IMG/VR virus record: IMGVR_UViG_3300015261_000018
Location: 1 to 23,008 of that record
DNA: 23,008 bases
Strand: one strand, 5' to 3'
Source of the DNA: a virus
Shown here: positions 2 through 23,008 of the stretch, in pieces
Position numbering within the stretch: the first letter of the stretch is position 1
How the letters are laid out: each line of letters begins with the position of its first letter
Position numbers and translations under genes: made by a program
The notes under the pieces: model-generated
Told to the model about the DNA's origin: nothing
The model's input: only the letters and a program-made list of their open reading frames with translations
Databases searched by the model: none

Positions 2-352
2 ACAGGATATGCCTGCGTAAACTGCCGAAAAATGGAAGAACTGGTTTGGTCAGATCCTAAAGTTCTTGGAGTTCTGAACAATGATGTGGTTTTGATTTCG
101 CTTTATGTAGACGATAAAAAAGAGCTTCCAGAAAACGAACAATATGTTTCTGAAACAACAGGAAAAAAGATTAAAACCATTGGTAATAAATGGAGCGATT
201 TACAGATTAAAACCTACAAAGCAAATGCACAGCCGTTTTATGTCATTGTAGATCATAGTAGCGCGAATTTGACAGAGCCGTCAGCTTATAATCCGAATAT
301 TGAGGAGTATTTCAATTGGCTTCAAATCGGAATTAAGAACTTTAAGAAGTAA
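2..352 (+). CDS. DsbD-like thiol:disulfide reductase, C-terminal thioredoxin domain (5' end outside window)
   Basis: The reading frame is open to the left edge and reads TGYACVNCRKMEELVWSDP at the start, so the ATG at 32 is internal and the gene is truncated by the window. CVNC is the redox-active CxxC of the C-terminal thioredoxin domain of DsbD-type reductases; the 'GY.CVNCRKME..VW.DP.V' context is characteristic of that family, which passes electrons from the inner membrane to periplasmic thiols. Roughly the last 116 residues are present. The rest of the domain (VVLISLYVDDK, then a long insertion, then QPFYVIVD with the cis-Pro region) is consistent. The gene is convergent with the tail cluster and looks like ordinary host chromosome, so it marks the left edge of the cluster. 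No att-like repeat is visible beside it. Confidence 0.82.
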   Translation, partial: TGYACVNCRKMEELVWSDPKVLGVLNNDVVLISLYVDDKKELPENEQYVSETTGKKIKTIGNKWSDLQIKTYKANAQPFYVIVDHSSANLTEPSAYNPNIEEYFNWLQIGIKNFKK

Positions 353-5756: not shown

Positions 5757-5791
5757 TTTTATTAATTTAAGTGTATATTGTTTTGGTGCTA

Positions 5792-6454
5792 TTAATTTAA
5801 ACTTGACGAATAAGCGTAGCTTTCATAACTTTTACCAGCTAGTTTATAGAAGTTTAAGAGGTTATGATATTCAATGTTTGCAATTTTGATTGCTGCCGAT
5901 GACGATTGAGGACTATTTCCGTTGGACTGAATAATGATATCTCCATTTAGTATTAAACTTTCGGGGATAAAGACTCTGAAGTTGGCGTAAGCGATTGTTG
6001 TGTAATCTTTTCGTTGAGCTAGATAAACTGGTTTTTTATATCCGTTTTTGTATTCATCATGTGTGTATACTTCCAGTTGAGGAATCAATAATTCGCCTTT
6101 TTTTATACCACCGCCTGGCAAATTGACATCAGGTTCGTAATATTCTTTATGTAGATATACATATTGCAAAGTAGGTTTTACAGATTCATCAATATAGATT
6201 AGCCCGTTTAATCGCTTCTGTTCTGTGCTTAAGTTAGGATCGTAATTTGTATAGGGATTGAAAGCATCATTCAAAACCTTTTCTAAATAAATTATTTGTC
6301 CTGTATGCTGCATTTTATAAAGCGTTTCTTCGTAAATCGAACGAATAGGAGCAAGTAAAACATGTAGCCATTGTGCGTGTGTGCGCTTTCTAAGGATAGG
6401 CGGAATGAGCCATAATAATAGCTTTTCCCATTTCAAAATGGTGTATTTATTCAT
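5792..6454 (-). CDS. gpI-like baseplate wedge / tail protein (220 aa)
   Basis: The gene sits 15 bp downstream of the gpJ-like gene and 35 bp upstream of the fibre gene, the place of gene I (P2) and its relatives. The N-terminus LLWLIPPILRKRTHAQWLHVLLAPIRSIYEE resembles the start of Bacteroidetes tail proteins found at this locus. The second half is beta-rich (YVYLHKEYYEPDV, AYANFRVFIPESLI) and could be the part that holds the fibre. No catalytic motif is present. The role is inferred mainly from gene order; sequence similarity to proteobacterial gpI is not obvious by eye. Confidence 0.6.
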   Translation of the reverse strand: MNKYTILKWEKLLLWLIPPILRKRTHAQWLHVLLAPIRSIYEETLYKMQHTGQIIYLEKVLNDAFNPYTNYDPNLSTEQKRLNGLIYIDESVKPTLQYVYLHKEYYEPDVNLPGGGIKKGELLIPQLEVYTHDEYKNGYKKPVYLAQRKDYTTIAYANFRVFIPESLILNGDIIIQSNGNSPQSSSAAIKIANIEYHNLLNFYKLAGKSYESYAYSSSLN

Positions 6455-6469
6455 TGTATATAAATTAGA

Positions 6470-7522
6470 CTATTGTTTATCTCGATAAAATGTATAAGGA
6501 ATATAGTTTACCTCAATCTGAAGAGTGTCCATATCAAAATAGCCTGCTCTTGGAATGAAATATTCAATTTTGGTCACATCTGGAAGTGATGGATTTGGCT
6601 GATCACTCGGATTTGTTGCGGCACCAGTTTGAACTTTTGTTAAAATTGGAATCTTAACTCCTTGTGCTTTTTGAACAGCATCAATTAAATACGTTTTAAC
6701 GAAAGCTCCATTAAATTCGATGTTTTTTAAATGGTCTGTAATGGCATCTAACACAGGAAATGCATCGCTATTTGATATCAATGAACCATTCTTTGGGTCA
6801 AGCTTGTACGCGGCTAATGGCATAATAGAATTTTCGTTTGAGCCATTTAAAAGTTTTGACTGATAATATTCAATATCTTGCGGATTGATATAAATGCTCA
6901 AAGGATCAACATAAACATTCAGGCTTAATTTTAAGATGTCACCTTGATCAGAACTGATATAAACCTGATTTCCTGCATCTTTTATCTTAGCAATGTATTC
7001 CTTAAATGCAAAAAGTTCATTAGGAACATCAATTCTAGAGATTTTTTTGTCTTTTACAGTGGCAACTTTAATAAAAACAACTCCAACTTTATTATGAAAA
7101 TAATCAGAGAATATTTCTTCTATTTTTGATTCAGGTTTAAGAACTGTTTCAAGATCAATTTCGCTTACAGCGCAATGTTTTATAATTTTAGATTCTTCAA
7201 TCTCCGATTCGGTAAGACCTGTGGTGTCAAATTGATAGGAACCGTTTTGCCACGTAAGAGATATTCTGTTGCTCGACTCTGAATTTAAAGGAGCGCCATA
7301 ATGAAAATTTAATGCTTGTTCTCTGTACCAGTTTAAAGTATGCGGTCTCGAGACCAGAGCATTTTTTTCTACTATTTTTTCATGAATCCAAATCGCAGTA
7401 GCCACTATGTTGGTCCAAAGTTTCCAAATCGCAGTTTTTGAATCTGTTAAGCCGCTTAGAGAATCGTAATTATCTTTTTCGTCCAGAATTTCTTTCTGTA
7501 TTTCAGCAATTGTACGTGCCAT
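6470..7522 (-). CDS. gpJ-like baseplate wedge protein (350 aa)
   Basis: The N-terminal helices (MARTIAEIQKEILDEKD... AIWKLWTNIVATAIWIHEKIVE) followed by a beta-rich middle with DVPNELFAFKEYIAKIKDAGNQVYI are typical of the baseplate J / gp6 family of Bacteroidetes contractile tails. The C-terminal part (DMDTLQIEVNYIPY) also fits. In a contractile tail this protein forms the wedge arms that open on contact. The gene is followed 15 bp later by the gpI-like gene and preceded by gpX- and gp25-like genes, which supports the call. It is shorter than P2/Mu-type relatives that carry longer arms. Confidence 0.68.
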   Translation of the reverse strand: MARTIAEIQKEILDEKDNYDSLSGLTDSKTAIWKLWTNIVATAIWIHEKIVEKNALVSRPHTLNWYREQALNFHYGAPLNSESSNRISLTWQNGSYQFDTTGLTESEIEESKIIKHCAVSEIDLETVLKPESKIEEIFSDYFHNKVGVVFIKVATVKDKKISRIDVPNELFAFKEYIAKIKDAGNQVYISSDQGDILKLSLNVYVDPLSIYINPQDIEYYQSKLLNGSNENSIMPLAAYKLDPKNGSLISNSDAFPVLDAITDHLKNIEFNGAFVKTYLIDAVQKAQGVKIPILTKVQTGAATNPSDQPNPSLPDVTKIEYFIPRAGYFDMDTLQIEVNYIPYTFYRDKQ

Positions 7523-7677
7523 ATTTTTATTTTTAGATATAGATTAGCCTGTAAGACATATGTAATATGCTTATAATTAGGGTTTTTATGTTTTTGTTAT
7601 GTATTACTACGAGACTGTAGTTTTATTTTTCAGAGCTTTACAAAAAGCAGATAGAATTGTAGAATTCAGGTAAGGTT

Positions 7678-7699
7678 AATTATTCAAAAGTGAATAATT
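7678..7699. other. Hairpin in the gap upstream of the gpJ-like gene
   Basis: A 9-bp perfect stem AATTATTCA / TGAATAATT with an AAAG loop lies 23 bp after the gpX-like stop codon. No T-run follows on the minus strand, so it is more likely an mRNA-processing or stabilising hairpin than a terminator. The rest of the 7523-7721 gap shows nothing else recognisable. Confidence 0.45.
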
Positions 7700-7721
7700 T
7701 CGATAAATGAGAAGATAGTTT

Positions 7722-8054
7722 TTAGTAAATGATAAAATCATCTTCAATAATCATGTAGTCAATTCCAGAGAAGTTATCTAGTAGAAATTGTTCTTCTTCA
7801 GTAAGTTCGGTTGCGGGTTTTAAGTTTCGAGAAGTATAATACTCTACAATATCTTTTTTAAAAGCTTCTCTGCCAACTTTTAAATCCTCATATACCGAAA
7901 TATCTTCAGTAAGATTAAATTGATCATTGTCTTCCAAAAGATCAAATACCTTTTCTATGCTTCCATACTCTTGCAAAGAGATGTCTAAAATGTTCTGATT
8001 TTGTTGTGGTCTAATAGTTCCCATCGATTTTAATGTTTTGTAAATCGTTGACAT
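7722..8054 (-). CDS. gpX/LysM-like small baseplate protein (110 aa; start may be 8024)
   Basis: QNQNILDISLQEYGSIEKVFDLLEDN (about residues 18-43) matches the LysM-like core of tail protein X-type proteins ('Q.l.DIa.q.YG....v..l...N'), which connect tube and baseplate. The C-terminal part is acidic (ELTEEEQFLLDNFSGIDYMIIEDDF). The listed start gives a 44-nt overlap with the gp25-like gene upstream; the internal Met11 (codon at 8024) would reduce the overlap to 14 nt and begin MGTIRPQQNQN, which fits the domain edge better. Either way the two genes are translationally linked. Confidence 0.6.
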   Translation of the reverse strand: MSTIYKTLKSMGTIRPQQNQNILDISLQEYGSIEKVFDLLEDNDQFNLTEDISVYEDLKVGREAFKKDIVEYYTSRNLKPATELTEEEQFLLDNFSGIDYMIIEDDFIIY

Positions 8055-8313
8055 CTAATGTTTTTACATAAAAGTTGTCATACGATAATTGTTTATCTAT
8101 TTCGTTTTCTAGTCTTAGTCTAGATGTCGCATCTGGACTGTTAATGTATTTTTCAATTCCTACTCCAAGTATCGGAAACTCTTTATAACTTCCTTTTTGA
8201 CTTAACAGTAAATGCTCGATGTTTTGTTGATCTGCTACATTAATGGCAAAATCACCATTTCCAGAAGCATCTGTTACAATTAACAAGTCGTCATCCATGA
8301 TAAAATCTTTCAT
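8011..8313 (-). CDS. gp25/gpW-like baseplate wedge protein (100 aa)
   Basis: This small protein has the pattern NIEHLLLSQKGSYKEFPILGVGIEKYINSPD, equivalent to the 'lLl..kGe....P..GvGi..Yl' core of Bacteroidetes gp25-type wedge proteins. It then has an amphipathic helix (RLRLENEIDKQLSYDNF) and a short beta end. It is the first gene after promoter A and overlaps the gpX-like gene, the usual W/X/J/I neighbourhood. The start at 8313 is chosen over the internal Met6; both are possible. The assignment rests on motif shape plus order. Confidence 0.62.
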   Translation of the reverse strand: MKDFIMDDDLLIVTDASGNGDFAINVADQQNIEHLLLSQKGSYKEFPILGVGIEKYINSPDATSRLRLENEIDKQLSYDNFYVKTLDVNDLQNIKIDGNY

Positions 8314-8399: not shown

Positions 8400-8466
8400 G
8401 TAAAAATACGCTATGCTTACTCTTTAAACAAGATTTTGAAGCTTAGGAATCAGTAGTTTCAGTAAG
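8400..8466 (-). promoter_or_regulatory. Promoter A of baseplate operon: activator element plus -7 box
   Basis: On the minus strand the element CTTACTGAAACTACTG (8466-8451) is followed after exactly 42 bp by TATTTTTAC (8408-8400), a match to the TAnnTTT core. A TTG lies 20 bp before the box, the Bacteroidetes -33/-7 arrangement. The first codon of the gp25-like gene is 87 nt beyond the box. The same element and spacing recur at promoters B, C and D. Confidence 0.8.
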
Positions 8467-8881: not shown

Positions 8882-9346
8882 TTATTGGTTGATTAAGTCT
8901 AAAAGAGCATCTTTAGATTTTTTGTCTTTTTTAATTTCATATTGAATCAATAAATCAAAAGCATCTAAAACTTGTTTTTTTGATTCCTCAAGAAAAGCCG
9001 GAGATAGTGTTTCTTTGGTTTCCCAACGTTTAAAGAATGCCGCTAAAAGATTTTTTTCTTTATCAGTCAACATCTTCCACATTGCAAAAGTGATTTCGTT
9101 ATTCGGTTTATTTTTTTCATATTCCACCAATTTTTCTATTTCAAGCAACAGCATTGTAACTTCTTTTTGATGAAGCACATAAGGACTAGTAGCTTCACTC
9201 ATTAATTTTTCAGCTTCAACTTTTATTTCAGTCGTTTTTTGGTAAGAGTATTGGTCGTAAAGAGCTGTTTTTGTTGAAGAACATGAAGTAAATAGAAATG
9301 AAATGATGATTAAAAATGCTGTAAGTTTTAATTTTAAATGATTCAT
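8882..9346 (-). CDS. Outer-membrane-type lipoprotein, possible spanin-like lysis protein (154 aa)
   Basis: A signal peptide with lipobox (FLIIISFLFTSC, Cys22) is clear, so the mature protein should be a lipoprotein. The mature part is a charged, almost all-helical rod (KTTEIKVEAEKLMSEAT..., EEIEKLVEYEKNK) with no enzyme motif. It lies 4 bp after the M15 endopeptidase and 13 bp before the membrane-anchored protein. Endolysin plus lipoprotein plus membrane protein is the composition of a phage lysis cassette, so a role in the last step of lysis (outer-membrane disruption) is inferred. It could instead be an immunity or wall-protecting lipoprotein. Confidence 0.55.
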   Translation of the reverse strand: MNHLKLKLTAFLIIISFLFTSCSSTKTALYDQYSYQKTTEIKVEAEKLMSEATSPYVLHQKEVTMLLLEIEKLVEYEKNKPNNEITFAMWKMLTDKEKNLLAAFFKRWETKETLSPAFLEESKKQVLDAFDLLIQYEIKKDKKSKDALLDLINQ

Positions 9347-9350
9347 CGGT

Positions 9351-9833
9351 TTATTTGTATAAGATTACATAATTCTTTCTGTCTCGTTTGAGTTTGCTTA
9401 ACACTTTCCAATCGCTATATCCCTTTTTATCAAAATGAGGAAGATCTTTGAAGGTTTTCCAGTCTCCGCCCCAATTCCAGCCATTTTTCTTAAAGATTTC
9501 TACACATTCCTGCCAGTCCGAAATTTGATCGTTGTCCCAATCTTTTGCTGTGTCCCATGAAGCCTTTTTACCGTCTATAATCAAACAGATATCTACTGCA
9601 AAACCATAATTATGAATAGATTGTCCGCCTTTGGCATTAGTTACTTTTTTTCCTGGTTTGGTTCTGCCAAAAGCATACAGATCTTCCTGTTCTTGAAAGG
9701 TTCTAAGACCTTGTGTAATGCGAACTTTTGCTCTTCCGCTCAAAGCGATATCGCATTGTTCGATAATTTTGGTAACTTCTTCTCTGACTGAGGGATGAAG
9801 CAAATCAATGTGTTTTTTTGTTGTTTGATCCAT
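9351..9833 (-). CDS. M15-family L-alanyl-D-glutamate endopeptidase, endolysin (160 aa)
   Basis: The zinc-binding and catalytic pattern of CwlK/VanY-type M15 peptidases is present: SIHNYGFAVD (His74, Asp81) and the C-terminal WNWGGDWKTFKDLPHFD (His133, Asp135), with QGLRTFQEQEDLYAFGRTKPG in between as in phage endolysins of this type. It cleaves the peptide stems of peptidoglycan. No signal peptide is seen, so a holin or other membrane step is needed for export. The frame is open upstream to 9959, but homology begins only at MDQTTKKHIDLLHPS, so the ATG at 9833 is chosen. It is the first gene behind promoter B and starts the lysis operon. Confidence 0.85.
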   Translation of the reverse strand: MDQTTKKHIDLLHPSVREEVTKIIEQCDIALSGRAKVRITQGLRTFQEQEDLYAFGRTKPGKKVTNAKGGQSIHNYGFAVDICLIIDGKKASWDTAKDWDNDQISDWQECVEIFKKNGWNWGGDWKTFKDLPHFDKKGYSDWKVLSKLKRDRKNYVILYK

Positions 9834-10027
9834 ATTGTATGTATTAATGATTAAAGAATAGAAGACTTTCTCGGTTATTAAAAAACACCAAGGGAATTGA
9901 TAATGAGATAAGATAAATTTGTGTTTTGAAATTATTTTGGAAACTGAAATTAGTTCCAAAATAAAATCGTGAAAGGTTCTTTTTTGAACTTGTTATTTTA
10001 GCTAAAACAGATGCTTCTAAGAACAGT

Positions 10028-10094
10028 GTAAAGATATGTCCAAATGATGGTTTTGAAAAACAATATAACTTTGTAAATCAGTAGTTTCAGTAGG
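10028..10094 (-). promoter_or_regulatory. Promoter B of lysis operon: activator element plus -7 box
   Basis: On the minus strand CCTACTGAAACTACTG (10094-10079) is followed after exactly 42 bp by TATCTTTAC (10036-10028). No TTG stands at the -33 position here, which suggests a core promoter more dependent on the activator. The leader to the chosen endopeptidase start is about 190 nt. Confidence 0.75.
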
Positions 10095-11631: not shown

Positions 11632-11976
11632 TTAAAGTATTTCTACCTTAACTGGTTTAGGCTGAATATGATCTGAGAAAGCGGTTGTGATATTAAGACG
11701 TAAATCATCTTCTTGTTCGATTTTGCCATCGCCTCCCAAATAGCAGTTTTTGAACAAGACTTCTAAAGCCTTAAATTCATCCATTTTAGAAGCTTGCAAA
11801 ACAGCAGCACGAATGCTCATGTCTGGTTTCTTGAAATAAGCAAAAAGAGTAGTGTCGTCGTCATCGTTAATGGTAAGCTTTACTACTTTTTTATGCTTAT
11901 ATTTCCATTGGTTTAATTGTGCTTGGGTGATATTTCCGTCTAGAATTTCGGTAGTTTCTGGTGTTGCTGTTTTCAT
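11632..11976 (-). CDS. Tail assembly chaperone-like protein (114 aa)
   Basis: The pattern LNQWKYKHKKVVKLTINDDD.TTLFAYFKKPDMSIRAAVLQASKMDEFKALEVLFKNCYLGGD is that of Bacteroidetes tail assembly chaperones, which bind the tape measure or tube during assembly; the second chaperone-like protein at 19243-19713 shares the 'yckKPsf......A...LFK.CLL' layout. It lies behind the tube gene, the usual order. A 251-bp gap with a terminator-like hairpin separates it from the tube, so its expression is probably lower than that of sheath and tube. No -1 frameshift product is apparent, since the next ORF begins 36 bp later with its own ATG. Confidence 0.62.
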   Translation of the reverse strand: MKTATPETTEILDGNITQAQLNQWKYKHKKVVKLTINDDDDTTLFAYFKKPDMSIRAAVLQASKMDEFKALEVLFKNCYLGGDGKIEQEDDLRLNITTAFSDHIQPKPVKVEIL

Positions 11977-12227: not shown

Positions 12228-12653
12228 TTAGTTCCACTCGATGTGTGAACAGATCAAGTCGAAAGAAACAGCGATTTTAGTATCTCCTTGACTGATTCCT
12301 CTACTGTTTGAATTGAATTCGCAGTTTCTTACAGTATGTGTGATAACTTCATTGCTGTCATCTAAATAACTTACAATGATGCTGAAAGGATTAAGATCCT
12401 GCAATCTTTGTCCTTTTGGTAAAGTAGCCAAAATCGCTTCTACTTCGTAGTTATATAAAGTAAGTGAAGCTTTAGCCTCATATTTTCCTCTTCCTCTATG
12501 TACTGGCATGTCTCCAGCTCCATAATGGTTTTCTTTAGATACCGAGTCACTGTAATTTACAGCTGTAATACCCGTTACGATATTACCTGCAATGCTTACT
12601 TCAATTGATGACCAGCTGTGTTGTTGTCCGTTAATTAATGGCAATTTATTCAT
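12228..12653 (-). CDS. Tail tube protein (141 aa)
   Basis: The length and pattern of contractile-tail tube proteins are seen: a short N-terminus, SSIEVSIAGNIVTGITAVNYSD, then the GRGKYEAKASLTLYNYEVEAI segment and a beta-rich C-terminus (RGISQGDTKIAVSFDLICSHIEW). Tube subunits form stacked hexamers inside the sheath. The gene directly follows the sheath gene and is followed by the chaperone, the canonical order. A 132-bp spacer from the sheath holds no clear promoter. Confidence 0.8.
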   Translation of the reverse strand: MNKLPLINGQQHSWSSIEVSIAGNIVTGITAVNYSDSVSKENHYGAGDMPVHRGRGKYEAKASLTLYNYEVEAILATLPKGQRLQDLNPFSIIVSYLDDSNEVITHTVRNCEFNSNSRGISQGDTKIAVSFDLICSHIEWN

Positions 12654-12785: not shown

Positions 12786-13943
12786 TTACGCTTTGTCGAT
12801 TCCAAAAGGATTTTTAAATCCTAAATCAACCGTAATTTTGCGAGCAGTTCCAATTGGAGTAATTTCTGCTTTAATTTTTAATTCAGAAGTTGCTAAAATG
12901 TTTTGTTTTGGGTCTACATAAACATCAAAAGCAGAAACCTCTTGGTTAGCCACCATTCCTTCTAAAGCTGATCTGCATAATCCTTCAAAACTTTTTGATA
13001 CAGATTGCGGTAATTTACCATCAATGTCAACTAAAACAGGAGAAGTCAATTTTGGCAATAAGGCAGTACGCAATAAACGAGTTGCTTTGTTGATTGTACG
13101 GTTGTTTTCGATATAAGCAAAGTCTGATGTATCTGCCGTACAAGTAGAGCTGTCGTTAAAATAAATACCTGCTAAACCTGTGTGTGTTCTTGCAAAAATG
13201 AATCTATTGTCATTCAGTTCTCTTAGTTGGCTAAGAGTTTTAATTTCTTCTCCACCAACAAATCCAGCTTGTGAAAAACCTTCACCAGTTAGGTTGAATT
13301 TTTCAATCCAGGCAATGTTTTCTGATACTTTTGCTTTTGAAACGGCACCTAATGCTAATCCAACTGCTGCAGAATTTGGATATTTCTCAGCTTTTTTAAC
13401 ATCCATAGCTACAACAACAGATACATTTGCTGATTTTCCAGCTAAAGAAGGCACGTCATTTCTGTCAAAGCCTTTTCCTTCAAGAATTACTTCAAAAGGC
13501 ATGTAATCTGCAAAAGCAAGTTCTGCTTGAGTTTGCGCTACAGCAACTGCATCCTGAGTATCCTCAAAAGTGGTTGCTCCAGAATAGATAATTGCCATTT
13601 GGCGAATATTTCCATTTGCTTTTTGCTGCATATCAAAAGCTTTTCCTGCAATATCTTCATAAGAATTGGCAGCTGTTTTCATGATGTACAAATCACCAGA
13701 AGGATTTAATCTGAAAAATTGCTGAACTTGATAATAAACAGATTGACCATTTAGATCATTATCTTCTGTAATGCCAAAGTCTTTAGCATCTTCCAATGAA
13801 GCTAGGCGTTCAACCTTGTCCGCTTCAAATTCTCCAGTAGTTTCTCCATCAAAAAGTAATCCTGAAACCATGTCTTGTTCTGGAGTTCTTCTTCCTAATC
13901 CGCCAGATAGTTTGTTAATTACTACATCGTTTAATGTACTCAT
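12786..13943 (-). CDS. Contractile tail sheath protein, DUF2586-like (385 aa)
   Basis: The N-terminus MSTLNDVVINKLSGGLGRR.PEQD and the C-terminal handshake-like region (residues about 340-385: SAFDVYVDPKQNILATSELKIKAEITPIGTARKITVDLGFKNP) are typical of the DUF2586-type sheath proteins of Bacteroidetes and Mannheimia-type phages. The middle is a Rossmann-like alpha/beta domain. Presence of a sheath makes this a contractile (R-type) rather than flexible tail. It is the first gene after promoter C, with a leader of roughly 230 nt. The gene is richer in Ala/Gly codons than its neighbours, as expected for a highly expressed structural protein. Confidence 0.83.
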   Translation of the reverse strand: MSTLNDVVINKLSGGLGRRTPEQDMVSGLLFDGETTGEFEADKVERLASLEDAKDFGITEDNDLNGQSVYYQVQQFFRLNPSGDLYIMKTAANSYEDIAGKAFDMQQKANGNIRQMAIIYSGATTFEDTQDAVAVAQTQAELAFADYMPFEVILEGKGFDRNDVPSLAGKSANVSVVVAMDVKKAEKYPNSAAVGLALGAVSKAKVSENIAWIEKFNLTGEGFSQAGFVGGEEIKTLSQLRELNDNRFIFARTHTGLAGIYFNDSSTCTADTSDFAYIENNRTINKATRLLRTALLPKLTSPVLVDIDGKLPQSVSKSFEGLCRSALEGMVANQEVSAFDVYVDPKQNILATSELKIKAEITPIGTARKITVDLGFKNPFGIDKA

Positions 13944-14178: not shown

Positions 14179-14245
14179 ACAAATTTAAAGTTTAATATCG
14201 TTTTTTACAATTTTTGTGATTGCTAAAACCAGTAGTTTCAGCAGG
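14179..14245 (-). promoter_or_regulatory. Promoter C of sheath-tube operon: activator element plus consensus -7 box
   Basis: On the minus strand CCTGCTGAAACTACTG (14245-14230) is followed after exactly 42 bp by TAAATTTGT (14187-14179), a full TAnnTTTG match, with TTG 20 bp before it. The element starts at the base after the stop codon of the 59-aa HTH gene. The leader to the sheath ATG is about 230 nt; I found no ORF in it (13944-14178). Confidence 0.82.
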
Positions 14246-14425
14246 TTAAGCTTTAGCTTCTGTTGCCAATCCTTCGTTTATAATGGTATAAATAGTGCGC
14301 TCTGTTAAGAACAAAGTATCAGAAAGTTCGGCAACAACAACTTTCATTTGTTTAGCCTGATTGTTGTTAAGATAATTAATAACGTAATCTCTTCTTTTGT
14401 CTAGTAGTGTTCTGCTTCTTTTCAT
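14246..14425 (-). CDS. Small HTH protein, candidate activator of the tail operons (59 aa)
   Basis: The ATG at 14425 opens a 59-codon frame ending in TAA at 14248-14246. It begins MKRSRTLLDKRRDYVINYL, and residues about 25-52 (KQMKVVVAELSDTLFLTERTIYTIINEG) read as a helix-turn-helix: VVVAELSDTLFLTERTIYTII, in the style of 'the cell must respond to a sensed state' HTH_23-type small regulators. A basic N-terminus supports DNA binding. It lies in a short operon behind the tail terminator, controlled by the divergent S24 repressor region, and its stop codon abuts the activator element of the sheath promoter. These facts suggest it binds the five repeated elements, but this is inference. It could instead be a cofactor or an anti-repressor. 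Confidence 0.65.
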   Translation of the reverse strand: MKRSRTLLDKRRDYVINYLNNNQAKQMKVVVAELSDTLFLTERTIYTIINEGLATEAKA

Positions 14426-14525
14426 ATGTGGTATTTATAGTAGAAGTTAATTTTGCTTAGGTTCGTTTTTGGCTTGTAATATTTTAATTTTTTATGAGAT
14501 CTGGGGAATACTCATATTTTGAAGA

Positions 14526-15101
14526 TTACGAATTAGAGTTTAAATCGATATCTCCTTGAACTTGATTTGGGTTAATTTCAATTATTCCAGAGGTTAAATC
14601 GTATCCTAATTCTTCTAAATCTTCATTGCTTAATCCGTTATTAAAAAGGATATATTTCTTTTTCAATGTATTTTCAACCAATGTTGTTTTATAAGTGATT
14701 TCCCAGATGAAGTAATCGTTTATATTCCAGTAAGTATGTTCATTGGTATATTGCTTTTCTCTTACCTTAAAGATCGAATTGCTATCTATAAGGGTATTGT
14801 TATTGCTTCTAGACAATACAGCTTTGTCAACTCTTTGTGCAATATCGAATGCATTTGCATAACTTGTTGAAGAGATCGTGTCAACAGGAAGCACGATGTA
14901 TAAACAAAAAGCAACATCTGCTTTGTAATTTTTCTCAGAAGAGGTCTCCCAAGAAATATTATCGTATTTAAACATCACGATTGGTTCTTCTATTGAAGAT
15001 TTAAAAATGGCATCACTATAAAGATGAACAGCTGGCGCACTAGAGGAAAACTCTGTTTCAATAGCGCTCTTTTTTTCGGTATAAAATTCTTTTAAAATCA
15101 T
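14526..15101 (-). CDS. Tail terminator (gpU/Gp37-like) protein (191 aa)
   Basis: MILKEFYTEKKSAIETEF...VHLYSDAIF....EEPIVMFKYDNISWE and the following alpha/beta pattern (YKADVAFCLYIVLPVD... AFDIAQRVDKAVL...) resemble the small terminator/neck proteins that cap contractile tails in Bacteroidetes prophages. It precedes the sheath gene, as in many contractile phages. The frame is open upstream to 15155, but promoter E (-7 box 15128-15121) lies inside that extension, so the ATG at 15101 is chosen, giving a leader of only some 10-20 nt. The C-terminus is acidic. Function is inferred from position and fold-like pattern. Confidence 0.62.
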   Translation of the reverse strand: MILKEFYTEKKSAIETEFSSSAPAVHLYSDAIFKSSIEEPIVMFKYDNISWETSSEKNYKADVAFCLYIVLPVDTISSTSYANAFDIAQRVDKAVLSRSNNNTLIDSNSIFKVREKQYTNEHTYWNINDYFIWEITYKTTLVENTLKKKYILFNNGLSNEDLEELGYDLTSGIIEINPNQVQGDIDLNSNS

Positions 15102-15120
15102 ATGTTGGATTATTTTTAAG

Positions 15121-15187
15121 CAAATATAAAACATATGTTTTGTTTTTACAAACATATTACATATAAATATGCAGTAATTTCAGTAAT
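15121..15187 (-). promoter_or_regulatory. Promoter E of terminator/HTH operon: variant activator element plus consensus -7 box
   Basis: On the minus strand ATTACTGAAATTACTG (15187-15172) is a two- to three-base variant of the element at the other operons. It is followed after 43 bp by TATATTTG (15128-15121), an exact TAnnTTTG, with TTG 20 bp before it. The extra base lies before the TTG, so core spacing stays the same. Palindromes overlap this core. Confidence 0.72.
15128..15171. promoter_or_regulatory. Candidate operators of the S24 repressor at promoter E
   Basis: AAAACATATGTTTT (15128-15141) is a 14-bp perfect palindrome touching the -7 box. CATATT-N7-AATATG (15153-15171) is a second dyad ending exactly where the activator element begins. 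ATGTTT/AAACAT (15135-15155) is a third overlapping one. AAACATATTACATA at 15150-15163 recurs at 15349-15362. Binding by the neighbouring repressor is inferred. Confidence 0.5.
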
Positions 15188-15285
15188 ATGATTTAACTAT
15201 TTGACTACTAATATGTATGATAATTCATATTTTTGTTAATTATTAAGTGCTGATAATCAGTGTATTTGAAAAATTGCCTATAAAA

Positions 15286-15318
15286 TTGTGATTATTAGCC
15301 ATATATTGTGTAGTTTTG
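15286..15318 (+). promoter_or_regulatory. Possible promoter of the S24 repressor gene
   Basis: TTG at 15286-15288 and TAGTTTTG (15311-15318, a TAnnTTTG match) are 22 bp apart, slightly longer than usual. The leader to the ATG at 15384 would be about 60 nt. No competitor in the 15188-15383 region looks clearly better; TATTTTTG near 15219 is a second option. Confidence 0.4.
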
Positions 15319-15333
15319 CAACATATACTTGAA

Positions 15334-15362
15334 GTTTTGCTTTAAGTAAAACATATTACATA
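15334..15362. promoter_or_regulatory. Candidate autoregulatory operator in the repressor leader
   Basis: An imperfect dyad GTTTTGCTT / AAGTAAAAC (15334-15352, one mismatch) overlaps the second copy of AAACATATTACATA (15349-15362), the 14-bp direct repeat also found at promoter E. Placement just upstream of the repressor ATG fits autorepression. Confidence 0.42.
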
Positions 15363-15383
15363 AAACCACAAACGATTTGCAAC

Positions 15384-16184
15384 ATGGAAATACATGATAA
15401 AATAAAACGTATTATAGATGAAATGAAGTTGAATAATAACTCATTTGCAAAATTAATAGGAGTTACCAGTACAACTATAGATAGTATTACGATTGGAAGA
15501 TTACAAGCCGATGGAGAAAGAAAAAGAACCAAGCCAGGTTTTGATCTGCTCCAAAGTATTATTACACATTGTCATGTAAACCCTGAATATTTTTTTGGAG
15601 ACAGCGAAGATATTTTTGCGAGCAAATCTAGTAATGCGGTTAGTTTGCATGTGCCGAAAATTATAACAGTAAATGAAGAGGGCGACGAAAATATCAATTT
15701 TGTGGGAGTAAAGGCTCGAGCAGGATATTTAGACGGATATGCGGATCCTGAATATATGGAAAGTCTTCCTTCTTTTAGCATGCCGATGCTTAAAAACGGC
15801 ACTTACAGATGTTTTGAAATTAAAGGAAATTCGATGTCTACCACAATACATGATGGAGATTATCTTTTTGGAAAATATGTGGATAATTTTGATGATATCC
15901 TAGACGGAAGAATTTATGTAATTGTGAGTAAGAATGATGGAGTAGTAGTAAAAAGGGTTTTGAATAGAATTAGAGAAAGCGGAAAATTGATATTAAAATC
16001 CGATAACCGAGACGGAAATTATCCAATGTATTCTATTTATGCCGAGGATATTCTGGAAGTTTGGTATGCAAGTATGTACGCATCTAGACAAATGCCCGAT
16101 CCAATTAATATTTATGAAAAGCTGCATGCACTAGAAAGTAAATATTTTGAATTGGAGGAAACGCTGAAAAAGAAACTGAATTAA
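15384..16184 (+). CDS. S24-family (CI/LexA-like) transcriptional repressor (266 aa)
   Basis: There is an N-terminal HTH (residues about 5-70: NSFAKLIGVTSTTIDSITIGRL) and a linker. The S24 peptidase domain (about 105-230) has the catalytic Ser150 in the motif KGNSMSTTIHDGDYL and the Lys190 in VVVKRV. ARAGYLDGYADPEY contains Ala113-Gly114, a plausible self-cleavage site of the LexA/CI kind. A short coiled coil ends the protein (IYEKLHALESKYFELEETLKKKL). Proteins of this class repress phage or tailocin genes and are cut with RecA help on DNA damage. This is the only plus-strand gene within the cluster; it is divergent from the terminator/HTH operon with shared operator-like repeats between, and it ends at a bidirectional terminator. 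Confidence 0.85.
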   Translation: MEIHDKIKRIIDEMKLNNNSFAKLIGVTSTTIDSITIGRLQADGERKRTKPGFDLLQSIITHCHVNPEYFFGDSEDIFASKSSNAVSLHVPKIITVNEEGDENINFVGVKARAGYLDGYADPEYMESLPSFSMPMLKNGTYRCFEIKGNSMSTTIHDGDYLFGKYVDNFDDILDGRIYVIVSKNDGVVVKRVLNRIRESGKLILKSDNRDGNYPMYSIYAEDILEVWYASMYASRQMPDPINIYEKLHALESKYFELEETLKKKLN

Positions 16185-16267: not shown

Positions 16268-16516
16268 TTAAGAAATGTATCCTGTTCCAGTTCCTGTTTG
16301 TGCCGATGCTGAACCTGTTGTGGCTACCGTTGTAGTTACAAGCCCTGTTTTGACAAACGTATCAATGGCAGTTGCTAATTTTTTTGCGGTAGTTTTTCTG
16401 GCATTTTTTGTTTTATTAGCATTATCATCTCCGTTATCGACATCAACACTTATTTTTGAGTTTTCTTCTAATGCTTCTAATATTGCTTCTTCCAATGCTG
16501 ATATTTGTAGTCCCAT
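16268..16516 (-). CDS. Small spike-linked protein (82 aa)
   Basis: The gene begins 2 bp after the stop of the spike gene. An acidic helical N-terminus (ALEEAILEALEENSKISVD) is followed by a Lys/Thr region (KTKNARKTTAKKLATAIDTFVKTGLV) and a Thr/Gly/Ala tail (TTVATTGSASAQTGTGTGYIS). The closing 'TTGSA.AQTGTGTG' resembles the C-termini of small proteins found next to gpV-like spikes in Bacteroidetes prophages. It is the last gene of the hub operon. The role is unknown; a spike-associated or chaperone function is possible. A plus-strand 90-codon ORF over the same bases is a shadow. Confidence 0.6.
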   Translation of the reverse strand: MGLQISALEEAILEALEENSKISVDVDNGDDNANKTKNARKTTAKKLATAIDTFVKTGLVTTTVATTGSASAQTGTGTGYIS

Positions 16517-16518
16517 TT

Positions 16519-17364
16519 TTATTTTTTTAATAAATTATTTAATTTAGATTTTATTGCAAGTAGATTTGCAACATTTGGACCTACGCCTTGCACGACGACA
16601 ATCTTTGATACTTCTGTTATGAAATTTTCTAATTCAAGTAATAGATTGTTTCCATTCGCATCAATTTTAAATTTCTCATCCATTTCAAAAGTTAATTTGT
16701 CTTTTACTATTGAAACTTTTTTGTCTGTAATCGTGGCTTCAAAACCATCTTTGATGCTTACTTTTACTTCTTTGTCTTTAAAATTGAAAATAGTATTTCC
16801 TTCGTTAATGCTGATTTTTTGCTCATCGATGCTAAAACTGCTTTTAGAAATTTCTTTTCCATTTTCATCATAAAATGAAGCACTTATATTTGCCGATTCG
16901 TTGCTGTTAAATTCTAGTTGAGCAATATTTTTATAGGAAGGCGTTGAAACAGCAGAAGAATCATTACTATTTTTTTCTTTAAATAGCATTTTAAATTTAT
17001 CTACATCAGTATCAATTTCCAGATATTGATTTTGTTCATTTTTAAAGCGGATAAAAGTACGTTCAACCTCAGATAATTGCGAAATAAATGCTCTAGTTTC
17101 AACTCCATCAATAATAGTAGCCAAAACCCAACTGTCTTTTTTAGGAACAGAAATAATTCCTTGTTCCAAATCTTGAATTGAAGCTTTTAATCGTACATTT
17201 TTAATAATTGCCCCATCAGCGCGCATTACATTTACGGTATAAGCATCTTCGGGATCATGGAGCGAAGTTTTTTCGGTATTGATTTCGATGACTTTTGCTG
17301 CAAAGGTTTCAATGATTCGATTTTTGCTGGCGACATCTTTTATTAGGTTTGTTATATTCCCCAT
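16519..17364 (-). CDS. gpV-like baseplate spike protein (281 aa)
   Basis: Residues about 20-125 have the pattern of the OB-fold that begins gpV/gp5/VgrG-type spikes (ETFAAKVIEINTEK..., SVPKKDSWVLATIIDGVETRAFISQLSEVE). The second half is a run of short alternating beta strands (ISKSSFSIDEQKISINEGN, FNFKDKEVKVSIKDG, EATITDKKVSIVKDK), as in an intertwined beta-helix needle, with a helical end. The protein should form the trimeric puncturing tip under the hub. No metal-binding tip motif (HxH) was seen. It lies 10 bp after the hub gene and 2 bp before the 82-aa gene. Confidence 0.7.
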   Translation of the reverse strand: MGNITNLIKDVASKNRIIETFAAKVIEINTEKTSLHDPEDAYTVNVMRADGAIIKNVRLKASIQDLEQGIISVPKKDSWVLATIIDGVETRAFISQLSEVERTFIRFKNEQNQYLEIDTDVDKFKMLFKEKNSNDSSAVSTPSYKNIAQLEFNSNESANISASFYDENGKEISKSSFSIDEQKISINEGNTIFNFKDKEVKVSIKDGFEATITDKKVSIVKDKLTFEMDEKFKIDANGNNLLLELENFITEVSKIVVVQGVGPNVANLLAIKSKLNNLLKK

Positions 17365-17374
17365 TTTTTTCTTT

Positions 17375-18673
17375 TTAAATTTCTACTCTTCTTCCAATAT
17401 AAATTCTCTGTCTGTATCCATTTTCGCCATAACTTCGTTCTACTTTCTCTACCTGAAAAGTTCCATTTTTTTCCTTATCCTTTGCATTTTCAAGTATTAC
17501 TTTGTCGGTTGGCCTTACAAATGGTTCTCCAAAAGTGAGAAAAGAACCTTCAAATCCACTTGGCTTACATTCCATGGCTCTTAAAGCGCCATATTGGTAC
17601 AGTTCTGAGGCAGTTTTTGTCACTGCATTTTTGAAAGCTTCGGGATTATTTGGCAAATCTTCACTATCATCATGTAAAACATGCGTTTTGATTAATTGAC
17701 CATTCGGATCTCCTAATTCAACATAAACGGGAGTATTAGAGTTCTTAAAATACTTTTCAATTCTAATGCGTGTGTTCTTTGTTGACTCTTTTACAACAAT
17801 TAGTTTGTCTTCTATAATGTTATATCGAAATCTAAAATGAACCTGTCCTAAAAAACGGTCAGAAACAGATTTACTTAATTTATTAAGCTGAGAACCTAAA
17901 AGACTTAAACCTTGAGTTATTAGTTTTTTGACCAATGTTCCTGCGAGCGGACTTTTAATGAAATTTCTATCTATAAAACTACCTAGTTCGCTTACAGTAT
18001 GCTGCTGCGGGTTATTGGTAATGGTTAATACCGGACCAACTTCTTCGGTTTTAAAATACGTATAGATTCCTTTGTCTTTTAGCATTTCAAAAACTTGTGC
18101 CAAACTGTGGCTTCGATTGATCATTATGTTTCCTAATTCCTCGTCAAGAGCATTTATTTTAAAAGGAAATTTTAACTCTTTTATTCTTTTTTCAAAAAAT
18201 GTTTTAGGATTAAAACTGTCAACATTTGTGGTCGGATTTGTAGCGACGGCATTTAGAGTGTCTTTTGAATTTTGAACGTCATCATCTTTTACGGCTTTTA
18301 CTTTTTTGAAGGCATACATTGCATCTTCACAAGAAATAGTTGCAGTTATATCAGATTGAACTCCTGTGATATAACCTCTAAAAGCGGGTTTGTAATCTCC
18401 ATCATAACCTAAAAATATCTCGATGTAATTTTCTATTTTAAAGAAATCATGGATCGTTTTTTCTTCTCCATTTGCGTTTTTAAATAAGCTTTGATCAAAT
18501 CCTTTCGTATCAGTATATACTTTTTTGGGCATCACAATAGTTGCTGTATCGGTCAACGATTTATATGAACTGTTTATTTCTACATTTTTTACATAAGTAA
18601 ATTCATAAAATTTAGGAGTAGGTATAAGGCTTACTGTTTCGTATACTTTAATTTTAGCATTTAGTTTAAGCAT
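17375..18673 (-). CDS. gpD/gp27-like baseplate hub protein (432 aa)
   Basis: IEIFLGYDGDYKPAFRGYITGVQSDITATISCEDAMYAFK (residues about 86-125) is the characteristic first hub domain of gpD/VgrG-N-type proteins. HSLAQVFEMLKDKGIYTYFKTEEVGPVLTI and HFRFRYNIIEDKLIVVKESTKNTRI follow the usual order, and the C-terminus DKVILENAKDKEKNGTFQVEKVERSYGENGYRQRIYIGRR is typical. Size is right for a hub without a fused spike. It overlaps the preceding gene by 8 nt, so the two are translationally coupled, and the spike follows 10 bp later. Confidence 0.78.
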   Translation of the reverse strand: MLKLNAKIKVYETVSLIPTPKFYEFTYVKNVEINSSYKSLTDTATIVMPKKVYTDTKGFDQSLFKNANGEEKTIHDFFKIENYIEIFLGYDGDYKPAFRGYITGVQSDITATISCEDAMYAFKKVKAVKDDDVQNSKDTLNAVATNPTTNVDSFNPKTFFEKRIKELKFPFKINALDEELGNIMINRSHSLAQVFEMLKDKGIYTYFKTEEVGPVLTITNNPQQHTVSELGSFIDRNFIKSPLAGTLVKKLITQGLSLLGSQLNKLSKSVSDRFLGQVHFRFRYNIIEDKLIVVKESTKNTRIRIEKYFKNSNTPVYVELGDPNGQLIKTHVLHDDSEDLPNNPEAFKNAVTKTASELYQYGALRAMECKPSGFEGSFLTFGEPFVRPTDKVILENAKDKEKNGTFQVEKVERSYGENGYRQRIYIGRRVEI

Positions 18674-19223
18674 TGTCTCTAATTATTAGTTCTACAGTTT
18701 CATCTGATGTGGCGCTGGCCGTAAACTTTTGGATGTTTTTTGTTCCAGAAATCGAAGGTATTGAATAGGAATCGATAACGAGTTCATAAATTCTAAATCG
18801 ATTCAGAATGGCATGGGTAACTCTTAAAGAATAAGGCGCATTTAAGAATTGTTTCAATAAAAAAAGCTTTTCTTTTGGATATTCATCTCCAGTTTCATTA
18901 GCAATTAACCCTTCTATGGAAATGCTAAAATCGCCATTTGTAATATGTTCTTTGATTGTTGAATCTCTTCCTTCGATTCCTTCTTTTTTGATAATTTTTG
19001 AACGATTGATATTTACCGTAACCGCATCTATTCGTAAACTCGGTAAATTAAGATCATTTTTTACAAGAGGTTCAAAAACTAAAGGAGCAAAAACTCTAAG
19101 ATTAAATTCGCCCCCAGTTTTATCTATAATAAAATCTTTTGATTCAGATTCGTTATAGTTTAGGCCACTATATTCAATGTCTTTATTTTCTAAAATTTCA
19201 TTTACATTAAAATTGAATTTCAT
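18666..19223 (-). CDS. Tube-baseplate connector-type protein, DUF6046-like (185 aa)
   Basis: The beta-rich protein carries RIDAVTVNINRSKIIKKEGIEGRDSTIKEHITNGDFSISIEGLI and FLLKQFLNAPYSLRVTHAILNRFRIYELVIDSYSIPSI. These resemble the Bacteroidetes phage family I know as DUF6046, encoded just before the hub gene. In other contractile phages this slot holds the LysM-bearing protein linking tube and hub. No LysM is visible here. It is 19 bp after the 156-aa gene and overlaps the hub gene by 8 nt. Family assignment is from memory of the pattern, not a search. Confidence 0.6.
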   Translation of the reverse strand: MKFNFNVNEILENKDIEYSGLNYNESESKDFIIDKTGGEFNLRVFAPLVFEPLVKNDLNLPSLRIDAVTVNINRSKIIKKEGIEGRDSTIKEHITNGDFSISIEGLIANETGDEYPKEKLFLLKQFLNAPYSLRVTHAILNRFRIYELVIDSYSIPSISGTKNIQKFTASATSDETVELIIRDNA

Positions 19224-19242
19224 AATAATTTATTTTTTGTTT

Positions 19243-19713
19243 TTAATTTGAAAATGTTTGTGCAAAAGCTGTCATAAGTGTGTTTTCCATTCTTTTCTCA
19301 TTATGCTTTTGTAGCCAGAGGGCTTCTTCCAAAAGTTTGTAAAACTCATCCATAGGTAATTGGTAAGGATCTACGTGAAAAGCGTATCTAATAAGTGCAG
19401 CCGATTTTTTGAATTCGTCTTTTTGTGGTGTTGCATCTATAATGAATTCACTGTCTTTTTTGATTATTTCGACGATTGAGTTTCCTGAAGAAAGCATGAA
19501 CTCGTCATTATAATTTTCTTTCTCAAGTAAACATTCTTTAAATAAAAATAGAATCGCTTCATGTGGATTGTCTTTGTAAATATTTTGATAATTTAGAAAT
19601 GTATTGAAAGAAGGTTTTTTGCAGTAAACTGTAACCAATTGATCATCAGAAGTGATTTTAAGCAAAGAGCCGTGTTTTTCTTTTAGGTTTTGAATTGTTA
19701 TTTCGTCAAGCAT
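19243..19713 (-). CDS. Tail assembly chaperone-like protein, second copy (156 aa)
   Basis: TIQNLKEKHGSLLKITSDDQLVTVYCKKPSFNTFLNYQNIYKDNPHEAILFLFKECLLE has the same layout as the 114-aa chaperone at 11632 (beta strands, 'KKP', helix, 'LFK.C.L'), then a C-terminal helical part (FYKLLEEALWLQKHNEKRMENTLMTAF). In contractile phages chaperones lie just before the tape-measure gene, but here the next gene is the 185-aa connector. It is possibly a paralogue dedicated to hub or tape-measure assembly. It follows the 64-aa gene by 23 bp. Confidence 0.55.
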   Translation of the reverse strand: MLDEITIQNLKEKHGSLLKITSDDQLVTVYCKKPSFNTFLNYQNIYKDNPHEAILFLFKECLLEKENYNDEFMLSSGNSIVEIIKKDSEFIIDATPQKDEFKKSAALIRYAFHVDPYQLPMDEFYKLLEEALWLQKHNEKRMENTLMTAFAQTFSN

Positions 19714-19736
19714 TTTTTTATGTTTTTGATTAAGAA

Positions 19737-19931
19737 TTAAATATTGCTGTCTCTGAATTCTTTTTTGACGGCTTCTTCCAGGCTTTCGTTTTTTGGAGAA
19801 ACGTTTAATGGAGTGATTGTAAACTGTTCGATAAAAATGTTTCCTTCAGAAGTCTGAGCCAAAGGATTTTTAAAATTGCTCATGTCTGGTGCAGGAGGTG
19901 TTTCTCCTAAATCTTTTGGTGTAAAATCCAT
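19737..19931 (-). CDS. Small protein heading the hub operon (64 aa)
   Basis: First gene behind promoter D. It is Pro/Asn-rich at the start (TPKDLGETPPAPDMSNFKNPLAQT), has a short beta-like middle (GNIFIEQFTITPLNV) and a charged end (ESLEEAVKKEFRDSN). No family is recognised. The tight 23-bp spacing to the chaperone-like gene and the stable ORF behind a regulated promoter support it being real. It may be a small tail component or chaperone partner. Confidence 0.55.
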   Translation of the reverse strand: MDFTPKDLGETPPAPDMSNFKNPLAQTSEGNIFIEQFTITPLNVSPKNESLEEAVKKEFRDSNI

Positions 19932-20065: not shown

Positions 20066-20132
20066 GTAAAAATAAGACTTAAGGAGGCGAAAAACGAAAA
20101 ATAAGAAGCTCGTTTTCAGTAGTTTCAGTAAG
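20066..20132 (-). promoter_or_regulatory. Promoter D of hub operon: activator element plus -7 box
   Basis: On the minus strand CTTACTGAAACTACTG (20132-20117, identical to the site at promoter A) is followed after exactly 42 bp by TATTTTTAC (20074-20066). No TTG stands at -33. The leader to the 64-aa gene is about 130 nt. The 19932-20269 gap holds only this promoter and the terminator at 20208-20249. Confidence 0.8.
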
Positions 20133-20269: not shown

Positions 20270-21088
20270 TTAATGTTTGGTTTTTATTCTCATTAAGGTT
20301 TCCCATTTTCCAAACCAATTGCTTTGTAAATCAGTTTCTCTATAAGTGCCATTATCGCTGTATTCTACTAATTTGTAAGATGATTCGAAGGCATCAAATT
20401 GATTTGTTAAACTACCTCCTAAATATAATCTTGGCCTTAAAATAGCAGGTGATTCCCCTGCAGTAACATTCATGGTGAGTTGAAATAATAAAGATGGATT
20501 TTCAGATAATATACTATTTACAGTATTTGAATTCATTATCATAAATTCAGCCAATTTCAAACCGCTTTCTCTACGAGCAACTGAATTGTATGGAGAGGGT
20601 AGTGCGCCTTGAAAAATTGGATCTAAGTAACTATAATCTGGTGTAAGATATCGGACTGTATTTTCAATTATACCATTTCGATTCTCAATATTGTTATAAA
20701 ATAGATTAGTGCCATTATAACTATTTATATCCGATAAGGTTATATTTTCTATAATTGCTTCTGTAAGTGGTTTGAAACTGCTTATCAAATTCGTATCTCC
20801 ACCATAATAAGTTGCTTCTGCCAGGAAATTTCCTTCGCAATAACCAATTACACTGTCGCCAATTTCTAATTTATCTGTTGTATTGGGGTCAACTTTAAAA
20901 ATTAGAAATTCTCCCGATGGAATAATCTTTTGGCTATTTTTTAGTTGGTCAATATCCTCAATATCTTCTTCAGGAATTTTGTCATATTTATGCCGAAAAG
21001 AATCCCAAGTATCCCAAAACTGAGTTTGCGTTGGTTTTAAACCCGTTCTAAACCAGTTTTTGATTGTTTTTAATGCTTGTATTGCCAT
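20270..21088 (-). CDS. Tail fibre adaptor-like protein with conserved N-terminal module (272 aa)
   Basis: MAIQALKTIKNWFRTGLKPTQTQFWDTWDSFRHKYDKIPEEDIEDI is a common N-terminus of Bacteroidetes tail-associated proteins. The following part (IIPSGEFLIFKVDP..., GDSVIGYCEGNFLAEATYYGG, to about residue 107) is nearly the same in the partial gene at the right edge. The C-terminal 165 residues are unique and beta-rich (YSYLDPIFQGALPSP..., RPRLYLGGSLTNQF). A constant head with a variable end suits a receptor-binding or fibre-adaptor protein. It is the last gene before a terminator and 73 bp behind the fibre gene. Confidence 0.62.
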   Translation of the reverse strand: MAIQALKTIKNWFRTGLKPTQTQFWDTWDSFRHKYDKIPEEDIEDIDQLKNSQKIIPSGEFLIFKVDPNTTDKLEIGDSVIGYCEGNFLAEATYYGGDTNLISSFKPLTEAIIENITLSDINSYNGTNLFYNNIENRNGIIENTVRYLTPDYSYLDPIFQGALPSPYNSVARRESGLKLAEFMIMNSNTVNSILSENPSLLFQLTMNVTAGESPAILRPRLYLGGSLTNQFDAFESSYKLVEYSDNGTYRETDLQSNWFGKWETLMRIKTKH

Positions 21089-22483: not shown

Positions 22484-23008
22484 TTATGAAACTATAAATT
22501 CCTCCGAATCTTCAAAGTCACCAAGAGTGTCTGTTAATTTCATAATTGTACCAGAAGGTAAGTCAAGCCAATACACATATAATTTAGGATAATAACCTGT
22601 CGGCCATGAAGTAGAAAACTCAAGTTCTCCAGGTCTTTTATACTTAATAGCAATTCCATTGTAAGCACCGCAGGTATAAGATCTTAAAAGTATTTCGTCA
22701 TGAAGTTCGTAAGTGATAGAATTAGTATCAAATGATATGATTTTTCCAACTAGATTATTAGGCTTAGTAAAACTGCTCATCAAACTTGTATCTCCACCGT
22801 AATAGGTTGCTTCTGCAAGGAAATTTCCTTCGCAATAGCCAATTACACTATCACCGATTTCTAATTCGTCAGCTGTATTAGGAGCAACTTTAAAAATTAA
22901 AAACTCTCCGGATGGAATAATTTTTTGCCCTGTTATTTGATCAATATTTTCAATATCTTCTAAAGGGATCTTATCATCTTTATGTCTAAATGAATCCCAT
23001 GTATCCCA
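22484..23008 (-). CDS. Tail fibre adaptor-like protein, paralogue of 20270-21088 (5' end outside window)
   Basis: The minus frame is open to the right edge and reads WDTWDSFRHKDDKIPLEDIENI, matching residues about 25-46 of the complete paralogue at 20270, so the true start lies beyond 23008. A TTG or ATG near 22783 is internal. The shared part runs to YYGGDTSLMSSF; the remaining about 95 residues (NLVGKIISFDTNSITYELHD..., YPKLYVYWLDLPSGTIMKLTDTLGDFEDSEEF) are unlike the paralogue's end. DNA identity in the shared part is high (22806-22849 and 20811-20854 differ at two of 44 bases). A recent duplication with exchange of the C-terminus is inferred. Confidence 0.72.
   Translation of the reverse strand, partial: WDTWDSFRHKDDKIPLEDIENIDQITGQKIIPSGEFLIFKVAPNTADELEIGDSVIGYCEGNFLAEATYYGGDTSLMSSFTKPNNLVGKIISFDTNSITYELHDEILLRSYTCGAYNGIAIKYKRPGELEFSTSWPTGYYPKLYVYWLDLPSGTIMKLTDTLGDFEDSEEFIVS

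Follow-up and report, generated by a model that had tools for sequence, protein, structure and literature searches.

The window, meaning the entire 23,008-base stretch of DNA analysed here, is an IMG/VR record whose nearest relative in our genome collection is the chromosome of Flavobacterium tagetis (sheath 98% identical). In that chromosome the same island adjoins a dsbD-like gene (named by eye), of which the 106-aa end lies at window positions 32-352, and the island ends past an effector-like gene and a lipoprotein gene. The island carries a DUF2586 sheath, tube, hub, terminator, M15 endolysin, holin and fibre genes. On the minus strand of the window we located the tail sheath (12786-13943; DUF2586, Pfam E = 3.1e-73; phrog_907), the tail tube (12228-12653; phrog_4579, E = 6.8e-22, with a match to the tube of phage lotta8-1), a hub/spike operon encoding a 64-aa protein, a 156-aa protein, a DUF6046 protein, hub, spike and an 82-aa protein (16268-19931), a lysis operon composed of the M15 endolysin and a lipoprotein (8882-9959), and a set of baseplate and fibre genes (3267-8313). 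When the genes of three Winoviridae phages were used in tblastn searches, no terminase, capsid, protease or transposase was found in three whole island regions, although such queries could miss more divergent head genes. The tape measures of three phages also had no match in the island regions, and none was obvious in the window. A DNA-level search of the window against the phage collection returned no match, and an NCBIfam search returned no convincing one. Judged by its gene content, this is a headless contractile-tail island, R-tailocin-like, with its own lysis genes; islands of this kind occur in soil and water bacteria.

A two-gene operon on the minus strand encodes a tail terminator/collar protein of 191 aa (14526-15101), followed by HTH59, a 59-aa protein and the proposed activator (14246-14425). 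For the terminator we used the conserved start at 15101 rather than the 15155 of the ORF list. The structure model of this protein matches the monocin cap, lambda gpU and the pyocin R2 collar (E = 3.6e-6 to 1.1e-4), which makes the first gene of the operon a structural gene and not a regulator. The AlphaFold model of HTH59 contains three helices (mean pLDDT 86.9) and resembles homeodomains in shape, with homeodomain-like matches of which none reached E ≤ 0.001. Fold searches of the PDB and BFVD gave no significant match for HTH59; the best in BFVD was a 60-aa protein of phage lotta8-1. The third helix is nearly invariant from Flavobacterium through Aquimarina, and a pN/pS of 0.094 (91 pairs) indicates purifying selection on the gene.

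The initial annotation described an S24 repressor with intact Ser150 and Lys190 and an Ala-Gly cleavage site, divergent from an operon that ends in the 59-aa HTH gene. Gene positions and strands agree with this description: the 266-aa repressor is encoded on the plus strand (15384-16184; Pfam Peptidase_S24, E = 1.2e-10), and both catalytic residues, as well as Ala112-Gly113, the single Ala-Gly of the protein, were confirmed in its sequence. Full length and the Ser, Lys and Ala-Gly motifs were found in 52 of 56 repressor matches, the window included. The other four, all from Aquimarina, are 118-123 aa long and have no protease domain, and thus the cleavage step is not universal. Since these Aquimarina repressors (L032-L035) retain the DNA-binding half without the S24 protease, the induction signal there must differ. 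Three islands (L030, L031 from Dokdonia, and L067) have no neighbouring repressor. Full S24 homologues are also encoded away from the tail island in Dokdonia (L125, 60%) and Tenacibaculum (L126, 57%), and both lie divergent from genes of unassigned function that resemble each other.

Operator-like sites had been noted at the promoter of the HTH operon, and comparison of 52 related loci places operators both there and in the leader of the repressor itself. In the window, AACATATGTT (15130-15139, no strand assigned) abuts the -7 element of the HTH operon, GTAATATGTT lies between that element and the box described below (15151-15160, minus strand), and GTAATATGTT recurs in the repressor leader (15350-15359, minus strand). 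Across the 52 loci, some of which are duplicates between genomes and IMG/VR, the operator words GTAATATGTT (or its complement) and AACATATGTT occurred 146 times within 16.2 kb of repressor-terminator intergenic DNA versus 37 times in 1,048 kb elsewhere. One stray match lies inside a gene of the window (18940-18949), and the late promoters of the window carry no repressor operators. At L030 and L067, which have no neighbouring repressor, the promoter of the HTH operon has no operators. One operator remains in Dokdonia (L031), where the 60% S24 homologue is encoded elsewhere in the genome. Aquimarina keeps one as well, adjoining the -7 element.

The putative activator box, TACTGAAACTACTGA, is a 15-bp direct repeat with a 9-bp period, TACTGA-AAC-TACTGA. 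With up to two mismatches allowed, the window contains five sites versus 0.08 expected, and none of 100 shuffles reached five. These comprise the element previously reported before four other operons, namely those for baseplate/fibre (8450-8464), lysis with the M15 endolysin (10078-10092), sheath (TGCTGAAACTACTGG, 14229-14243) and hub/spike (20116-20130), and the copy at the HTH operon promoter, TACTGAAATTACTGC (15171-15185), all on the minus strand. This last copy had been called weaker, which is the case in 35 of 36 distinct sequences. Downstream on the same strand lie the -7 elements TATATTT of the HTH operon promoter (15122-15128, 56 bp from the box) and TAAATTT of the sheath promoter (14181-14187). 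Among 164 distinct sites from Flavobacterium loci, TAnnTTT began 55 bp from the box in 123 cases and 56 bp from it in 38. HTH operon promoters have the 56-bp distance, with the box 1 bp further out. Averaged over the four late promoter classes, the information content is 1.6-2.0 bits at the positions of the box and likewise at TA and TTT in the -7 element. A TTG region between box and -7 element, beginning ~20 bp downstream of the box end, is also conserved, while the remaining spacer drifts and spacers of different promoter classes are unrelated. The flavobacterial -7 element is placed at -12 to -5 in the available text of PMC9723704, which would put the box centre near -61. The arrangement varies outside Flavobacterium: boxes in Dokdonia (L031) are degenerate, L034 has a box without a spaced -7 element, and Aquimarina has a single box, which precedes the sheath, while its HTH operon has none. 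Neither feedback nor multi-operon control is therefore universal.

We then examined the co-occurrence of box and HTH59. A scan of all IMG/VR contigs for the box followed by 40-44 bp and TAnnTTT yielded 131 sites in 57 contigs, a count that, like those below, comes from related sequences and not from independent events. All 30 contigs encoding a close HTH59 (at least 79% identity) carried the box, with 104 sites in total, and the gap was 42 in 89 of these and 43 in 15, with no other value although 40-44 was allowed. The 27 contigs without a close HTH had one site each, with gaps of 40 (10 contigs), 41 (1), 42 (8), 43 (3) and 44 (5); judged by sequence, at least one of these contigs (L139) comes from an island of this type. 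Of the 30 whole genomes that carry the sheath group, 29 had the composite site (gap 40-54), with 117 sites in total versus 11 for a control with the reversed pattern. Counted by hand, 108 of the 117 are close to the island on the contig that carries the HTH gene, and the other nine lie outside that region in G002 (1), G006 (2), G015 (1), G021 (3), G022 (1) and G122 (1). The genome that had no site is that of Tenacibaculum (G019), which is also the only one of the 30 without the HTH gene. Among the window genes compared, its island (L029) keeps the terminator, sheath, tube and baseplate genes and has no HTH, neighbouring repressor or box; it is a single case of HTH loss, and the neighbouring repressor is gone too.

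Presence of the HTH gene is narrowly distributed. Twenty of 249 Flavobacterium genomes match it, 19 strongly and one weakly (G172, E = 1.1e-4), the latter in a different, prophage-like setting. Strong HTH matches and the sheath group coincide in the same 19 genomes, with one HTH copy each, and 17 further genomes have distant sheaths only. The composite site was absent from all 25 Flavobacterium genomes without HTH that were searched, including 15 with a distant DUF2586 sheath; two more distant-sheath genomes, G111 and G256, were left out of this set. The initial annotation had raised the prospect that the HTH family is common without the element. This is not so for the close subfamily, as all 19 genomes have the element, but it is partly true of distant relatives in 11 IMG/VR contigs, a Chryseobacterium phage (MA9V-3) and the Winoviridae. 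The 11 contigs encode relatives of 32-60% identity without an exact box, and no box was found in the surroundings (6.5-8.2 kb) of six of these genes.

Two other proteins were considered as the box-binder. The repressor was rejected because seven islands, with either no repressor nearby (L030, L031, L067) or a protease-less one (L032-L035), retain both HTH and box. The terminator was rejected because of its structural fold and its presence in the Tenacibaculum island, which has no box. Separately, a sequence nearly identical to the sheath promoter, box included, occurs off-island (L134, G015:C211:248537-248598) upstream of an unrelated gene that by eye may encode an HTH protein, and the activator may therefore have an off-island target.

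Tailocin control is known in detail for Pseudomonas aeruginosa. In the R and F pyocins of this species, the cleavable repressor PrtR blocks the gene of an activator, PrtN, which binds a P-box before the tail and lysis genes (available text of PMC8609362 and PMC10598620). Based on the gene order, operators, boxes, spacing and co-occurrence compared across loci, we consider the best explanation of the island to be a cascade like that of PrtR and PrtN in which the activator is a different protein, derived from phages (probability about 0.8). The PrtR/PrtN-like logic proposed initially thus gains support at the level of sequence from the operators at the HTH promoter, the boxes before the late operons and the association of box and HTH gene. 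For binding, activation, cleavage, the DNA-damage signal and particle release, we infer the following course. The S24 repressor would occupy the operator in its own leader and those at the terminator-HTH promoter, two of which lie between box and -7 element. Its loss, presumably by RecA-stimulated self-cleavage at Ala112-Gly113, would allow transcription of the terminator-HTH operon. The homeodomain-like HTH59 would then bind TACTGA-AAC-TACTGA, probably as two monomers in tandem, and from a box centred ~61 bp upstream of the start, a class-I activator position, could recruit RNA polymerase at the hub/spike, sheath/tube, lysis and baseplate/fibre operons. Outside the window, its targets would include a fibre operon and, in a subset of islands, an effector-like gene in divergent orientation. 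The weaker box at the promoter of HTH59 itself would provide positive feedback.

The likeness to PrtR/PrtN lies in an S24 repressor with cleavage motifs set over a separate putative activator gene, and several features differ. HTH59 has no match to PF11112 (PyocinActivator) at E ≤ 0.1, so the earlier observation that it lacks similarity to PrtN holds at the Pfam level. A PF11112 search of three carrier genomes was also negative, a weak result since control genomes gave none either. Unlike PrtN, HTH59 is encoded downstream of a tail terminator as the second gene of its operon, and unlike the P-box, its candidate site is a direct repeat of 9-bp period before a Bacteroidota -7 element, with a weak copy at the promoter of the activator gene. 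A further P. aeruginosa system pairs AlpR, a PrtR homologue, with AlpA, an activator of a holin operon that acts once DNA damage has lifted repression by AlpR; as presented in the available text of PMC8609362, AlpR/AlpA controls a lysis operon and not a tail cluster.

We also compared the island with Winoviridae phages. The phages lotta8-1/pippi8-1 and FPSV-S1 share the DUF2586 sheath (36%), tube and hub with the island but differ from it in being complete phages with heads. An HTH59 homologue is encoded beside the protease/capsid operon of lotta8-1 (gp33, HMM E = 3.6e-6; hhalign probability against HTH59 94%) and of FPSV-S1 (HMM E = 1.2e-7). Two genes from gp33, lotta8-1 also encodes gp31, which is weakly related to the terminator (hhalign probability 74%, E = 2.7e-5). 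The HTH gene of FPSV-S1 (L131, 13531-13725) is absent from the public annotation. The box of the window was not found in the phages L129, L131 and L132 or in L130. Instead, the HTH/protease promoters of these Winoviridae phages have a different direct repeat, TAAAGACAAAWTAAAGAC. In both L129 (19545-19562) and L131 (13501-13518), a direct repeat TAAAGACAAA(A/T)TAAAGAC is situated between the HTH gene and the protease gene. By hand count, the distance from this repeat to a -7-like TAATATTG is 51 bp in both lotta8-1 and FPSV-S1; among the matches listed, those elsewhere in the two phages are weaker. This suggests, as a lead from sequence comparison, that the activator came with the phage and that the box has changed. 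P2 Ogr and Mu Mor/C are small late-operon activators of phages that act from sites upstream of -35, and as far as we are aware they belong to families unrelated to HTH59; a Mor-family model gave HTH59 only a non-significant fold match (E = 0.26).

With a sheath, tube, hub, HTH and, weakly, terminator related to Winoviridae and no head genes found, the island is at most a derivative of such a phage. Its filing as a virus record in IMG/VR, together with the head genes not being found, would suit a decaying prophage remnant whose switch is out of use. We regard such a remnant as highly improbable, because the layout is kept across dozens of loci, the HTH gene has a pN/pS far below one, and box letters stay near 2 bits while the spacers drift.

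The sign of regulation by HTH59 does not follow from sequence alone. Many small HTH proteins act as repressors, and HTH59 could bind the boxes but repress the late operons as a timing brake. The placement of the box ~20 bp upstream of the TTG region, at a fixed 55/56 bp from the -7 element, is typical of activators, and the operator-free late promoters of the window imply that something else must keep them off in the absence of HTH59; we therefore view a brake as unlikely. The box, being a fixed promoter element, might also be an extended promoter motif recognised by a host protein or an alternative sigma factor, leaving HTH59 with some other role. This is very unlikely in our view, given that the -7 element is of the ordinary kind, that Flavobacterium genomes without HTH have no composite site, and that nearly all sites cluster near HTH on the island contig, where a host regulator should have host targets.

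If the cascade with a phage-derived activator is correct, it provides a concrete, testable tailocin circuit in another phylum, in which the same control logic was reached with a different activator. HTH59 and its DNA word would identify the whole regulon by sequence, the box would also mark cargo genes adjoining the island, and it could serve as a tight promoter in Flavobacterium work. A review describes the control of tailocin loci without conserved regulators as unclear (available text of PMC10598620), and searches of the open-licence literature for tailocins of Flavobacterium or Bacteroidota gave no title on this subject, and none turned up for DUF2586. More tentatively, and with somewhat less than even confidence, we propose that HTH59 founds a family of ~60-residue homeodomain-like master switches for late genes in Bacteroidota phages and tailocins. 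In such a family the activator and a tandem-repeat box would form the stable core, retained between phages and tailocins, and the repressor layer would be exchanged, being a cleavable S24 protein in Flavobacterium, protease-less in Aquimarina and not adjacent in others. Tailocins of different phyla would then have reached the same two-step logic separately.

Several further features of the island were observed. The fibre-like protein at 3267-5756 combines fn3 domains with a C-terminal Hint/intein-like domain, and an 87% repeat between 20775-20932 and 22770-22927 reflects two fibre genes with duplicated starts, a pattern known from fibre exchange. Two phrog_19076 genes in different operons (11632-11976 and 19243-19713) are apparently a duplicated tail assembly gene. 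A 1325-aa protein (G001:C2:78430-82407; L117:4430-8407) has a conserved N-terminus and a variable remainder; its gene and the lipoprotein gene next to it are divergent at the island end, and a homologue in G123 (3060042-3056668) is faced by a box. The protein resembles a polymorphic antibacterial effector accompanied by an immunity lipoprotein, or else such an effector fused to a tape measure. Lastly, a MAG titled Limnohabitans (L023) contains an island of the Flavobacterium type (sheath 70%, HTH 73%) and is probably a wrongly binned contig.
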